In this document: in pieces, positions 16,972-63,338 of the stretch
Numbering within the stretch: position 1 is the first letter of the stretch
How the letters are laid out: each line of letters starts with the position of its first letter
Assembly (NCBI RefSeq): GCF_900141765.1
Contig: NZ_FSRK01000002.1
Span: 186,001 to 250,000, forward strand
From: Epilithonimonas zeae
Lineage (GTDB): Bacteria; Bacteroidota; Bacteroidia; Flavobacteriales; Weeksellaceae
DNA: 64,000 bases
Direction of reading: 5' to 3'
Made by a program: the position numbers and the translations under genes
The notes under the pieces: model-generated
What the model was told of the DNA's origin: nothing
What the model saw: the letters and a program-made list of their open reading frames with translations, nothing else
The model's database searches: none

Positions 16972-18639
16972 ATGGCAAATTCAAGAGCAAGAGAAACCAC
17001 AGAAGCTATCGAAAGATTATATGTCTCTATGAGACACTTATTCTATAGAGGATTTTTCAAACCATCTGGAGTGTCGGGCGAATCATTAAGAAAATTATTA
17101 ATGGTCATCAATCCCGAAATCTACGGAAGCATGAGCATCCCTAACAAGATAGAACTGGACGGTTTGCTTTATGTTCTTGACCGTCTCCCGGAAGGCATCG
17201 AGGAGTGTTCTTTTATCCATTTGACTTCTGACGAAGGTTTTGACAAAGGAAGTTTCGAGCCAATCGTTCCTAAGAAAAGACGTAGAAACTGCTACAGAAT
17301 AGATGAACACCAAATGAACATCGAGGTTCTTTTGGGACGTTCTGAGATTTATGATATCCTGACTCACTTAACATTCCTTTATTTGGAAGCTGATAAAATT
17401 AAAAATATCGGTTTCGATTTGGATAACGAAGGTCGCCCAAAACGCATCTGGAAAATCATTGAAGAGGTTGCAAAAGGCGAGAAAAAATACAGCAGAAAAG
17501 AAAAAGAAGTGGCATTGATTCATCTTTCTTCTTTCTTAGGAAGAACTTTTGATGAAACTCTGAATGCTTATAACAACTTCGGAGACGACAAAAATCCGGA
17601 CCGTTTGTTCAAAATCATTTATTGGTTAGGGCAGATCAGCCTTGATGATTGGAGAGAAACAAGGGAAAGAGAAATCCATTTTTCAGCGATTCTGCAGGAA
17701 CGTGTAGGTCATCACCTTTTCGGGGAAAGATGGGCGAACAAAATCAAGAATATCCTTGTAGAAAACAATCTTCATATGCGTCCGCTTCACATCATCAGTG
17801 CCAATATGCACTCTGTGAAAAATATGCTTTTCGCCAATGAGGCTCTTAACAAAAAAGCCACAAAAGAAGTAGATTATAAATTATTTGCTGACATCAGTAA
17901 TAAGAAAGACCTTCAGGAAAAAATCCTTGACCACGCATTGAAAGAAGGAATGATTTATATTGATGACAATAGCGGAAGTAATATCGATGTCCAAATCATC
18001 GACCTTTCTAAAACTGAACTAAAGAATTCGGTTTTCGCTAATCAAAAATACAAAGGCGACGATGTGATTTTGGTTTTCGATTATGCTTTCGGTGAACAAG
18101 CTTATGAAGTAATGGACGAATTGTTAAGGCCTTACGAAGTGAACGGCGAAGTTTATATGATGAAAGTTAAATCCGTCTCTATAATGGGGAAAGCAGGAAT
18201 CTTGACCGGTGGAAAAGGCGATATTATGATTCCAACGTCTCACATTTTTGAAGGAACTGCCGATAATTATACTTTCGAAAACGCTTTGAAATTGGAAGAT
18301 TTTGTAGATGATGAGGTTAAAGCTTTTGAAGGACCAATGATTACTGTTCTTGGAACATCGCTTCAAAACAAAGATATCTTATCCTATTTTATGACAACTT
18401 CTTGGAAAGCCATCGGACTGGAAATGGAAGGTGCGCATTACCAAAAAGCGATTCAAGTAGCGAGCAAAATTCGTCATCACATTTCTCCGGATTTGTTTGT
18501 GATGTATGCTTATTACGCTTCTGATAATCCATTAGAAACAGGAAGTACATTATCTTCCGGCGGACTTGGACTCACAGGTGTAAAACCAACTTATATGATT
18601 ACGCATAAAATCATCGAGAAAATTCTTGATAAGAAATAA
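16972..18639 (+). CDS. DUF6909-like protein with nucleoside-phosphorylase-like C-terminus
   Basis: A 555-residue soluble protein of a family I know only from Bacteroidetes (DUF6909, from memory). No signal peptide or membrane segment. The first 350 residues match nothing I recognise and include a basic stretch (KKRRRNCYRIDEHQ). The last 200 residues resemble the nucleoside phosphorylase/AMP nucleosidase superfamily: MITVLGTSLQNKD (about 450-462), AIGLEMEGAHYQKAIQVAS (about 480-498, like the EME-x-A signature of that superfamily) and AYYASDNPL (about 513-521, like the SDxPL of AMP nucleosidase). A role in nucleotide metabolism is therefore inferred, not shown. Strong promoter and terminator make it a single-gene unit. 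Confidence 0.8.
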   Translation: MANSRARETTEAIERLYVSMRHLFYRGFFKPSGVSGESLRKLLMVINPEIYGSMSIPNKIELDGLLYVLDRLPEGIEECSFIHLTSDEGFDKGSFEPIVPKKRRRNCYRIDEHQMNIEVLLGRSEIYDILTHLTFLYLEADKIKNIGFDLDNEGRPKRIWKIIEEVAKGEKKYSRKEKEVALIHLSSFLGRTFDETLNAYNNFGDDKNPDRLFKIIYWLGQISLDDWRETREREIHFSAILQERVGHHLFGERWANKIKNILVENNLHMRPLHIISANMHSVKNMLFANEALNKKATKEVDYKLFADISNKKDLQEKILDHALKEGMIYIDDNSGSNIDVQIIDLSKTELKNSVFANQKYKGDDVILVFDYAFGEQAYEVMDELLRPYEVNGEVYMMKVKSVSIMGKAGILTGGKGDIMIPTSHIFEGTADNYTFENALKLEDFVDDEVKAFEGPMITVLGTSLQNKDILSYFMTTSWKAIGLEMEGAHYQKAIQVASKIRHHISPDLFVMYAYYASDNPLETGSTLSSGGLGLTGVKPTYMITHKIIEKILDKK

Positions 18640-35521: not shown

Positions 35522-35637
35522 AATTTCTGAATTGATTTTTTTCATTTTGCTGAACTTTTAGTTTTTAGTATTTTCGTAAGGTTATAAAAATCAATGAAAA
35601 GTTGGTTGAAAAAGTTTATAAAACAGTCTTTATCAAC

Positions 35638-35727
35638 TAGCCCCGATTGCAGCGGTTACCCCGCAACAAGCGCTGGGAAAAGCCTTGGTGTGAGGAGTAA
35701 TAGCGGAAAGCGGGATAAAGCTCCTAA
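35638..35727. repeat. Dispersed intergenic repeat, subtype B, copy 2
   Basis: 90 bases from TAGCCCCGATTGCAGCGG to ATAAAGCTCCTAA, the same length and orientation as 13344-13433. It ends 20 bases before the fumC start, so it sits within the fumC leader or promoter region. Confidence 0.8.
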
Positions 35728-61098: not shown

Positions 61099-61971
61099 TT
61101 AATTCCGCTTATCATTTCCCCAAAGCAGTTTTTGACGAATCGTTTCGTAGAAACTGAAATTTTTTGGTTTAATGAGAAACAAGGAAAATTCGGCTTTTTC
61201 AATTACAACTTCGCTACCAACATCCATATGATAAAGTCTGGAATCCAAAGCTAAAGTATATTGCGGAACACGGCTTTTGACCGTCAATTTTATCTTCGAA
61301 TCGTCTTTTACGATGAGCGGACGAACATTCAGATTATGAGGAGCAATTGGTGAAATTGCGAAGTTATCATTGGATGGAGAAATAATCGGCCCTCCACAAC
61401 TTAATGAATAGGCGGTAGAGCCTGTTGGCGTCGACACAATCAATCCATCACCCCAGAAAACGTTCAGGAATTCATCATTGATGTAAGATTCCACAGTAAT
61501 CATTGATGTAGTTTCTTTTCTGGAAAGGCTGACATCATTCAGAGCAAAAGGAAAATCAATCTGAGAATTATCGTCCGTCGTAATTTTAATCACGGAACGT
61601 TCGCTGATATTATAATTTTTATCAAGAATAATCGAATCCAATTCATCAAAAATCTGGTCTTTCCTGAAATTTGCCAAAAATCCTAATCGTCCTGTATTAA
61701 CCCCAATAATCGGAATCTCAAGGTCTTGAATAAATGTTAGGGCATTCAGAATCGTTCCATCGCCTCCAAAACTGAAAACAATATTGACATTCTTATTCTT
61801 AAGCTCTTCTTTCCCGGAAAATGTATCAAATTCTTTGGAAAAATTCAGATTCTCCGCCATCTCTGCGTGAAGAACAACTGCTACTTCTCGCAACGCCAAT
61901 TCGGAAATGAACCGGTTGAGATACAAAAACGTATCAAGATCCTTTTTTTGAGAATAGATAGCTGCCTTCAT
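61099..61971 (-). CDS. nadK: NAD kinase
   Basis: NadK phosphorylates NAD to NADP. The 290-residue protein has the catalytic FSFGGDGTILNA, GVNTGRLGFLANF, NDVSLSR, DGLIVSTPTGSTAYSLSCGGPIISP and the C-terminal IVKDDSKIKLTVK. ATG at 61971 (MKAAIYSQKK) is chosen over a TTG one codon earlier; it begins 3 bases after the CBS-domain gene stop, so the two are an operon. Confidence 0.95.
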   Translation of the reverse strand: MKAAIYSQKKDLDTFLYLNRFISELALREVAVVLHAEMAENLNFSKEFDTFSGKEELKNKNVNIVFSFGGDGTILNALTFIQDLEIPIIGVNTGRLGFLANFRKDQIFDELDSIILDKNYNISERSVIKITTDDNSQIDFPFALNDVSLSRKETTSMITVESYINDEFLNVFWGDGLIVSTPTGSTAYSLSCGGPIISPSNDNFAISPIAPHNLNVRPLIVKDDSKIKLTVKSRVPQYTLALDSRLYHMDVGSEVVIEKAEFSLFLIKPKNFSFYETIRQKLLWGNDKRN

Positions 61972-61974
61972 CAA

Positions 61975-62628
61975 TTATATTTCTAAAAATTTCTGGAAAA
62001 ACCCAAAACGGTCTTTCAACAGTTCTTCCTTCTCGTCATCATAATGTTTATGCACCACCACATAGCCATAACGTTCAAAAGTTTCGTCTATAGAACTTAG
62101 ATTTTCATTGCTGATTTTGAGCGTAATTTCTACACTGTCATCCTTTATAGCATTGATGAATGTGCCGTAGATTTTTCCATTGTTACTTTCTACAATCTGA
62201 GAAATCTCCGTCATAGAATAATGCAATCCTGTGGTTTGAATTGTCAAAATCGCCCCGTTTTCGGAAAACAAAGGATATTTGGAAAACTCATTGAAAATAT
62301 CGTCGCAAGAGATATAACCCAGATATTTTTCCTCTTTGGAAATAACAGGAACTACATTCGCGTTGAAGGTGTGGAAAAGCTTGATGCTGTCCAGCAAACT
62401 GCTGTCCTCCATAATCGCAAAACGCTCGTAATGGATATTAAGCGAATCCAGATTGCCTTCCGGACTGTCTTCCAAAAACGGTTGACTCAATCCACCAAGA
62501 AAAATGCCCTTGCTCACAATGAAAACGTGGGAATATCCAAATTCCTTAGCAACCTCAGAAGCTTCTTCTATAGAGTCTCTGACGCCGAAAGCCGGATAGT
62601 CTTTGGAAATGTAATCTTTGATAAACAT
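61975..62628 (-). CDS. CBS domain protein
   Basis: A 217-residue cytoplasmic protein with two CBS motifs (about 1-60 and 65-130: FAIMEDSSLLDSIKLFHTFN, VVPVISKEEKYLGYISCDDI) and an ACT-like C-terminal part (about 140-217: ILTIQTTGLHYSMTEISQIV). CBS pairs bind adenine nucleotides, so adenylate sensing is plausible. Its tight coupling to nadK suggests, but does not prove, a link to NAD(P) control. Confidence 0.88.
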   Translation of the reverse strand: MFIKDYISKDYPAFGVRDSIEEASEVAKEFGYSHVFIVSKGIFLGGLSQPFLEDSPEGNLDSLNIHYERFAIMEDSSLLDSIKLFHTFNANVVPVISKEEKYLGYISCDDIFNEFSKYPLFSENGAILTIQTTGLHYSMTEISQIVESNNGKIYGTFINAIKDDSVEITLKISNENLSSIDETFERYGYVVVHKHYDDEKEELLKDRFGFFQKFLEI

Positions 62629-62698
62629 TATGCTAATTTACAAAAATTACTTAGCCACAAAAGATTTTAAAAATTTTTATGTTTTTTTACAACAACTA

Positions 62699-62730
62699 TT
62701 GCTTTATATAAAAATAAAAATATATCTTTG
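62699..62730 (+). promoter_or_regulatory. Orphan consensus promoter
   Basis: TTG (62699-62701), 21-base spacer, TATCTTTG (62723-62730): a full match with no rightward gene behind it; the next coding sequence is on the other strand. Confidence 0.65.
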
Positions 62731-62734
62731 TCGC

Positions 62735-62804
62735 CTTTCATTTTTACTTTTTATTAGATTTATTTCAAACTGCAGCACTTCATTGTGTTTGCAGTTTTTT
62801 ATTT
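62735..62804 (+). ncRNA. Candidate small RNA of about 65-70 nt
   Basis: Begins at the start predicted from the orphan promoter and ends with the hairpin and T-run at 62767-62804. No ATG frame inside. Its 3' end touches the end of the trmH-family gene in antisense, so it could also act on that mRNA. I recognise no known RNA family. Confidence 0.45.
62767..62804 (+). terminator. Rightward terminator of the candidate small RNA
   Basis: AAACTGCA (62767-62774) pairs with TGCAGTTT (62790-62797), with CAC/GTG inside, followed by TTTATTTT. There is no T-run on the minus-strand side, so it serves rightward transcription. Confidence 0.7.
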
Positions 62805-63338
62805 TGTAAGATTAAGATTCTTTGCAAATTCCCAGATTACGATTCCGCCACAGACACTTACGTTCAGAGAATGTTTGGTTCCAAGTTGTGGGATTTCTAG
62901 GAAAGTATCAATATTTGGTAAAGCTTCATCACTGATTCCATCGACTTCATTACCAAGAATCAAAGCGTATTTTTTGTCTGGATTAATTTCAAAATCTGTT
63001 ATCAATTGACTTGACGAGGTTTGCTCAATCCCAATAATTTCGAAGTTTTCCTTTTTAAGATGGTCAATAGCCACATTAATATCCTGCTCATAAATCCAAT
63101 CCACACTTTCGGTTGCACCAAGAGCCGCTTTATGAATTTCACGATGAGGCGGCTGAGGCGTGATGCCACAAAGCACAACTTTTTCTATCAAAAAAGCATC
63201 GCCAGTTCTGAAAATCGCACCAACATTGTGCATACTTCTTACATTATCCAAGATCACAACCAAAGAAATCTTCGTTGTTTTCTTAAACGTTTCTACATCT
63301 ATTCTTCCTAGCTCTTCTAGTTTCAGTTTTTTCGTCAA
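62799..63338 (-). CDS. TrmH family RNA 2'-O-methyltransferase
   Basis: A 179-residue SpoU/TrmH-type SPOUT methyltransferase: VVILDNVRSMHNVGAIFRTGDA (motif 1), YALILGNEVDGISDEAL (motif 2) and LEIPQLGTKHSLNVSVCGGIVIWEF (motif 3). The target could be tRNA or rRNA. The start is TTG at 63338, two bases after the bestrophin-like gene stop; no ATG fits, so translation is probably coupled. Confidence 0.92.
   Translation of the reverse strand: MTKKLKLEELGRIDVETFKKTTKISLVVILDNVRSMHNVGAIFRTGDAFLIEKVVLCGITPQPPHREIHKAALGATESVDWIYEQDINVAIDHLKKENFEIIGIEQTSSSQLITDFEINPDKKYALILGNEVDGISDEALPNIDTFLEIPQLGTKHSLNVSVCGGIVIWEFAKNLNLTK

Follow-up and report, generated by a model that had tools for sequence, protein, structure and literature searches.

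Within the window (the whole 64,000-nucleotide stretch of DNA that was analysed), a short unit on the + strand lies between the genes for NAD kinase and a CBS-domain protein on its left and the gene for a SpoU/TrmH-family methyltransferase on its right (table 1). The preliminary description had proposed a small RNA (sRNA) gene here, comprising TTG-N21-TATCTTTG at 62699–62730 and then a unit of about 65 bases that ends in a hairpin with a rightward T-run, and the sequence reads as described. It had also stated that no rightward gene follows the promoter and that the RNA overlaps the 3′ end of the trmH-family gene by a few bases; both observations hold, in that the neighbouring genes are both on the − strand and the trmH stop codon (62799–62801, − strand) lies under the sRNA 3′ end. 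This overlap with trmH is incidental.

Table 1. Features of the sRNA locus and its neighbours, numbered by position in the window.
Feature	Position	Strand	Remarks
NAD kinase gene	61099..61974	−	NF002521
CBS-domain protein gene	61975..62628	−	PF00571; divergent from sRNA; commonest syntenic neighbour
−33 element TTG	62699..62701	+	read from sequence; TTG 18–21 nt 5′ of −7 box in 132/134 distinct loci
−7 box TATCTTTG	62723..62730	+	form TAnnTTTG (flavobacterial sigmaA); 134/134 distinct loci, fixed distance
Small RNA (candidate)	62735..62803	+	about 65–69 nt; start (about 62735–62737) predicted from −7 box; predicted end in T-run
30-nt 5′ seed	62735..62764	+	predicted unstructured; complementary to start regions of folD, purC, purH, purK and others
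Terminator hairpin, arms AAACTGCA/TGCAGTTT	62767..62797	+	followed by TTTTTTATTTT; covarying arms; z −4.7
T-run of intrinsic terminator	62795..62804	+	present in 134/134 distinct loci
SpoU/TrmH-family methyltransferase gene	62799..63338	−	PF00588; convergent with sRNA

The spacer between TTG and TATCTTTG is 21 nt. According to PMC9723704, the TAnnTTTG −7 box of flavobacteria spans −12 to −5, so the sRNA is expected to start near 62735 and to be about 65–69 nt long. The promoter had been rated among the strongest in the window. Its TTG/TAnnTTTG form is indeed conserved, but the match within the window is no better than chance: TTG-N19–23-TAnnTTTG occurs 13 times in the 64 kb against 9.9 ± 3.3 in 20 shuffles. 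The promoter pattern alone is therefore not beyond chance, while its conservation is, and it was on conservation that the original case depended. A generic promoter and terminator scan listed neither the sRNA promoter (the scan consensus is that of E. coli) nor the sRNA hairpin. The RNA region 3′ of the promoter consists of a U-rich stretch followed by the hairpin and T-run; positions 62736–62804 have a folding energy of −14.1 kcal/mol (z −4.7; 0/200 shuffles as strong), and the predicted folding is confined to the 3′ half of the sRNA.

ATG is absent from the sRNA on the + strand, TTG and GTG are confined to the hairpin, and the 30-nt stretch is invariant in 58 genomes and thus has no synonymous pattern. 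A 63-aa frame on the + strand with a TTG start (62618–62809) spans the site and starts upstream of the promoter; the + strand frames listed at the locus are mechanical. Judged by these features, the sRNA would encode no protein. A small peptide on the − strand, from an ATG frame inside the conserved stretch, was considered and rejected, as relatives share only its overlap with the seed and promoter and diverge beyond (by eye).

Rfam 15, searched with gathering and lax thresholds, assigns the locus to no family and returns chance-level matches only (E 9 and 9.5); the candidate sRNA is a family absent from Rfam, and belongs to no named family tested. The window does hold one Flavo-1 RNA (RF01705, 44.5 bits), also a small RNA motif of flavobacteria, at 35635–35721 (+), just 5′ of an open reading frame from about 35748 that appears by eye to encode class II fumarate hydratase; it differs in lying at another place, whereas the sRNA locus falls below every Rfam threshold. 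A marginal match to SNORD36 (17945–18022 (+), E 0.8), a eukaryotic family, is almost surely due to chance.

Conservation and genomic context of the small RNA gene

With a 176-base BLAST query, every one of the 23 genomes in the genus gave a strong match, and of 36 other genomes of the family 15 matched with E 1e-10 or better. A covariance model built from 19 distinct sequences matched 262 of 320 family genomes, spread over 14 of 33 genera and always with a single copy. Applied to 296 genomes sampled from the order, it gave 46 matches, all in the Weeksellaceae family, although these large model searches used stricter filters and weak matches may be lost. In an exact-pattern scan, named carriers among the 80 matches listed of at least 120 include Chryseobacterium, Kaistella, Epilithonimonas, Cloacibacterium, Riemerella, Bergeyella, Soonwooa and Elizabethkingia. 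The plasmids and viral contigs searched gave no sRNA match.

The first 30 nt of the sRNA are identical in 58/58 retrieved genomes (of the 262 matched); these were obtained through BLAST or the model and are mostly high scorers, including eight weaker and more distant ones. The exact-pattern scan for carriers required 26 of the 30 seed bases and cannot test seed identity. In loci L079, L080 and L081 the identical 30-nt seed is followed by a different hairpin. All 134 distinct loci have a hairpin, with energies from −11.4 to −22.2 kcal/mol, followed by four or more T, in a comparison that placed no constraint on promoter or terminator. Covariation, which had been named as a check, was found: both-side changes occur at 8 of 10 hairpin pairs, and in 0/500 shuffles, in an alignment fitted to the structure, and at 1/10 pairs in an unfitted alignment of the 19 sequences. 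The form of the promoter in 134 loci points to transcription of the sRNA from its own promoter, and the hairpin, T-run and covariation point to an intrinsic terminator. The proposal of an sRNA gene is thus supported by the conservation of promoter and hairpin in relatives (134 distinct loci), and that the gene is real is near certain.

The divergent CBS-nadK arrangement beside the sRNA is kept in most retrieved loci, while no trmH homologue was found in 42 of 213 (some of these loci are partial, and some genomes are represented twice). In Elizabethkingia, Riemerella columbina and R. columbipharyngis the sRNA lies away from CBS-nadK, and it is therefore an independent unit. A cis-acting leader (riboswitch or attenuator) was rejected, because both neighbours in the window are on the − strand and most loci keep the divergent CBS-nadK genes. 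In L173 (Elizabethkingia), L103 (Riemerella columbina), L083 and L079, a gene resembling aat (leucyl/phenylalanyl-tRNA-protein transferase, by eye) lies to the right of the sRNA, either adjoining it or one gene away, unlike in the window.

Complementarity to the starts of purine genes and folD

Weak secondary BLAST matches of the seed recur at corresponding positions in related genomes. Both strands of twenty regions holding such a match, or a match to a wobble pattern, were scored for pairing. The starts of purK, purM, purH, purC and folD account for many of these regions (folD makes formyl donors used in purine synthesis); in the others, the match is at a gene resembling argC, a peptidase gene or a secreted-protein gene (by eye), or away from any gene. 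Duplex energies were then calculated for the first 36 nt of the sRNA against −60 to +21 of each start, using orthologues from 16 family genomes that carry the sRNA (sRNA+) and eight that do not (sRNA−). The genes scored were folD, purC, purH, purK, purL, purF, purM, purN and purE (the last in 8/16 sRNA+ genomes); purD yielded 0 starts.

In sRNA+ genomes, a duplex of −18 kcal/mol or stronger is predicted for folD in 12/16, purC in 10/16, purH in 9/15 and purK in 5/16, against 2/16 for purL, 2/16 for purF, 1/15 for purM, 0/16 for purN and 0/8 for purE. Control genes reach this value in 0/155 cases in the same 16 genomes and in 0/49 in sRNA− genomes (0/204 together). A wider control gave 11 strong starts among 749 near named sRNA loci, and eight of the 11 belong to fructose-bisphosphate aldolase (by eye) of Chryseobacterium. 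These aldolase starts, in L101, L123, L134, L138, L159, L171, L191 and L192, range from −19.5 to −20.1 kcal/mol. With aldolase sites among the strong controls, the regulon is probably not limited to purine genes, and aldolase is a likely further target.

When the seed was replaced by 200 dinucleotide-shuffled seeds, the z scores in sRNA+ genomes were −7.8 for folD, −7.5 for both purC and purH, −5.1 for purL, −4.9 for purM, −4.1 for purK and −3.6 for purF, with −1.3 for purE and +0.6 for purN. The real mean was reached by 0/200 shuffled seeds for folD, purC, purH, purK, purL and purM, by one for purF, 23 for purE and 142 for purN. Every purine-gene set from sRNA− genomes has a z weaker than −2. 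Control genes average −8.9 kcal/mol against −7.9 for shuffled seeds (z −2.7; 0/200 shuffles as strong); start regions in general pair slightly better with the U-rich seed, by about 1 kcal/mol.

The window's own genome (G000) gives −25.1 kcal/mol for purH, −23.7 for purK, −22.7 for purL, −22.4 for folD, −19.2 for purM, −14.4 for purC, −10.8 for purN and −9.9 for purF. Pairing is patchy, in that G055 is without strong purH, purK and purL sites, G026 without folD, and G048 is weak at folD, purH and purK; at purF, purL and purM it is weak in most genomes. Most strong duplexes fall within about −40 to +6 of the mRNA, some reach −45 or beyond, and those at purC of G044, G048 and G287 and at purL of G000 are wholly upstream of −20.

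A pattern search with CTAATAAAAAGTAAAA, a 16-mer complementary to the seed and not tied to purine genes, was run on G000, G041, G047, G053 and G031. Among the matches listed, 12 outside the sRNA gene are readable with 0–1 mismatch, and five of these are at purH, purC, purK and folD (twice). In each of the five genomes the pattern has fewer matches than its backwards control (49 against 101 in G000), and most of the two-mismatch matches in G000 fail to combine a gene start with strong pairing; with many matches away from gene starts as well, counting of exact motifs is a poor way to find targets. The rarity of the 16-mer may mean that stray sites are selected against, or may be simply a k-mer bias. 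For a 26-nt wobble-pattern partner of the seed, counts in nine genomes resemble those of the backwards control once the sRNA gene itself is set aside. Moderate complementarity is also seen at the starts of genes named by eye as ribonucleotide reductase small subunit (−14.3 kcal/mol, L411 of G053) and succinate dehydrogenase flavoprotein (−15.1, L459 of G000, C3). Overall, the seed has conserved complementarity to several mRNAs encoded elsewhere, and its predicted pairing with the starts of purine genes and folD is well supported.

Predicted target sites in relatives without the small RNA

No sRNA− genome reaches even −16.5 kcal/mol at folD (0/8), purC (0/8), purH (0/4) or purK (0/8; 0/28 together), nor at purL (0/8), purF (0/6), purN (0/8) or purE (0/7); purM does so in 1/4. 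The purM site of G045 (sRNA−, L277) has a value of −20.4, though folD and purC are weak there, and is perhaps a relic of recent loss. In a tree of PurC, FolD, PurK and PurN, where some nodes have support of only 0.6–0.75, the sRNA− genomes G025, G045, G046 and G038 fall inside the sRNA+ clade, which implies at least three losses if the sRNA was gained once. Two sister pairs allow direct comparison. Between G033 (sRNA+) and G045 (sRNA−), folD changes from −21.7 to −6.3 kcal/mol, purC from −24.3 to −10.7 and purH from −23.1 to −15.1; between G024 (sRNA+) and G025 (sRNA−), purC changes from −18.4 to −5.6 and purK from −17.1 to −11.1, with folD shifting only from −15.0 to −12.7.

The seed is absent from the gap upstream of CBS (next to trmH, by eye) in G045, G046, G051 and G043, and model and pattern searches gave no sRNA in G025, whose assembly has 160 contigs, or G038. 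A diverged seed with up to three mismatches was found in 1/30 sRNA− genomes (G049, three mismatches) against 3/30 for the backwards control. Across 15 genomes, the best 30-mer matches in the gap upstream of CBS need 8–12 edits, with none within 12 in G038; two of these genomes, whose sRNA lies at another place, give 9 and 11 edits, so 8–12 edits represent chance level. The gene, the invariance of its seed, the predicted complementarity and the weakness of the sites where the sRNA is missing can all be read from the genomes themselves.

Proposed mechanism, alternatives and known systems

The reading that we favour, and consider likely, is that of a trans-acting sRNA, with its own sigmaA-type promoter and terminator, that pairs with the starts of purine genes and folD and represses them. 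The stretch 62735–62803 (+) would be transcribed from its own promoter and ended by the intrinsic terminator, and its single-stranded first 30 nt would act as an anti-start-site sequence, pairing mostly between about −40 and +6 with the mRNAs of folD, purC, purH and purK and, less uniformly, of purL, purF and purM. In Flavobacterium johnsoniae, what matters for initiation is low structure together with adenines at −3, −6, −12 and −13, and not a Shine–Dalgarno sequence (PMC6847099). The duplex would cover the unstructured A-rich region that ribosomes of this phylum use instead of a Shine–Dalgarno sequence; repression is therefore expected, with initiation blocked and a coordinated drop in purine and formyl-folate production. 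Expression, repression and a physiological signal are what we infer. More tentatively, and a little short of an even chance, the invariant 30-nt anti-start-site RNA might be what chiefly coordinates de novo purine synthesis and its one-carbon supply in much of the Weeksellaceae, with sites kept alongside the sRNA and drifting where it is lost.

Pairing alone leaves the sign of regulation undefined, and the sRNA might instead activate or stabilize purine mRNAs, or be titrated by them; in Flavobacterium, normal levels of two protease mRNAs depend on the Rfp18 RNA (PMC9723704). Such roles are unlikely here, since most strong duplexes lie on the A-rich region over and just upstream of the start codon, where adenines at −3, −6, −12 and −13 promote initiation in F. 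johnsoniae (PMC6847099). It is less probable again that the complementarity is a by-product of A-rich starts meeting a U-rich RNA whose role lies elsewhere, in protein binding or on aldolase-like targets. The control genes (z −2.7) and the aldolase starts of several Chryseobacterium (up to −20.1 kcal/mol) are what such a by-product would give, but composition-matched shuffled seeds never reach the values of folD, purC, purH or purK, none of the 204 first-set controls attains −18, and those four genes do not pair in sRNA− relatives.

Slightly less probable still is a protein-binding site in DNA or RNA, recognized perhaps by a purine regulator, that is shared by the leaders of the purine genes and, in inverted form, by the sRNA gene; the sRNA would then be a decoy or unrelated. 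A common motif does recur upstream of several pathway genes, as a protein site might; against this, the sites are at the start codon, the best purine-gene matches among the twenty regions read in the mRNA sense though both strands were scanned, the part of the one seed strand that pairs varies from gene to gene, and complementarity weakens in genomes that lack the sRNA. In G047, moreover, the purH site lies inside the 40-nt gap between purN and purH, within the operon, a position easier to reconcile with control at the RNA level than with an operator at a promoter. An antisense role in cis, against the trmH 3′ end or the divergent CBS-nadK operon, as the few-base overlap with the trmH stop codon and the common CBS-nadK synteny might suggest, is highly improbable given the 42/213 loci (some partial) where no trmH homologue was found, the Elizabethkingia, R. 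columbina and R. columbipharyngis loci away from CBS-nadK, and an invariant 5′ part that does not reach trmH.

No description of this candidate sRNA in the Weeksellaceae, and no report of an sRNA controlling purine synthesis in Bacteroidota, was found in searches of the open-licence literature, supplements aside. The Weeksellaceae family includes animal and opportunistic human pathogens, and repression by base pairing, if true, would give this family a candidate regulator for a core pathway. Loss of the sRNA together with weakened sites would then be a natural experiment for sRNA–target co-evolution, and the pairing would offer a testable rule for sRNA–mRNA recognition in a phylum whose mRNAs are described as lacking Shine–Dalgarno sequences (PMC6847099).

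Among known systems, Rfp18 of Flavobacterium psychrophilum is similarly a conserved flavobacterial sRNA proposed to pair with several mRNAs; by its description in PMC9723704 it is predicted to pair with protease mRNAs through a third stem-loop, whereas the candidate sRNA has one predicted hairpin and a single-stranded 5′ seed. The two also differ in that Rfp18 is from Flavobacterium, while 46/46 order-sample matches of the candidate sRNA are in the Weeksellaceae family. The candidate sRNA probably acts as a 5′-seed trans-acting sRNA. The RybB/MicA-type sRNAs of enterobacteria are about 70–80 nt long, with their own promoter, an unstructured conserved 5′ seed and a 3′ terminator hairpin; they pair with the start regions of many mRNAs, are linked to sigmaE and Hfq, and have mRNAs of outer-membrane proteins as targets. 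The candidate sRNA resembles them in its conserved seed at the predicted 5′ end, own promoter and 3′ hairpin, and differs in having a promoter of the TAnnTTTG sigmaA form, not sigmaE, a 30-nt seed, and purine genes as its best predicted targets. PurR repressors and purine riboswitches coordinate de novo purine control via promoters or cis-acting leaders, whereas the candidate regulator is a separate RNA encoded elsewhere; if the proposed repression is true, base pairing at A-rich starts would do here what PurR repressors or purine riboswitches do in other organisms.
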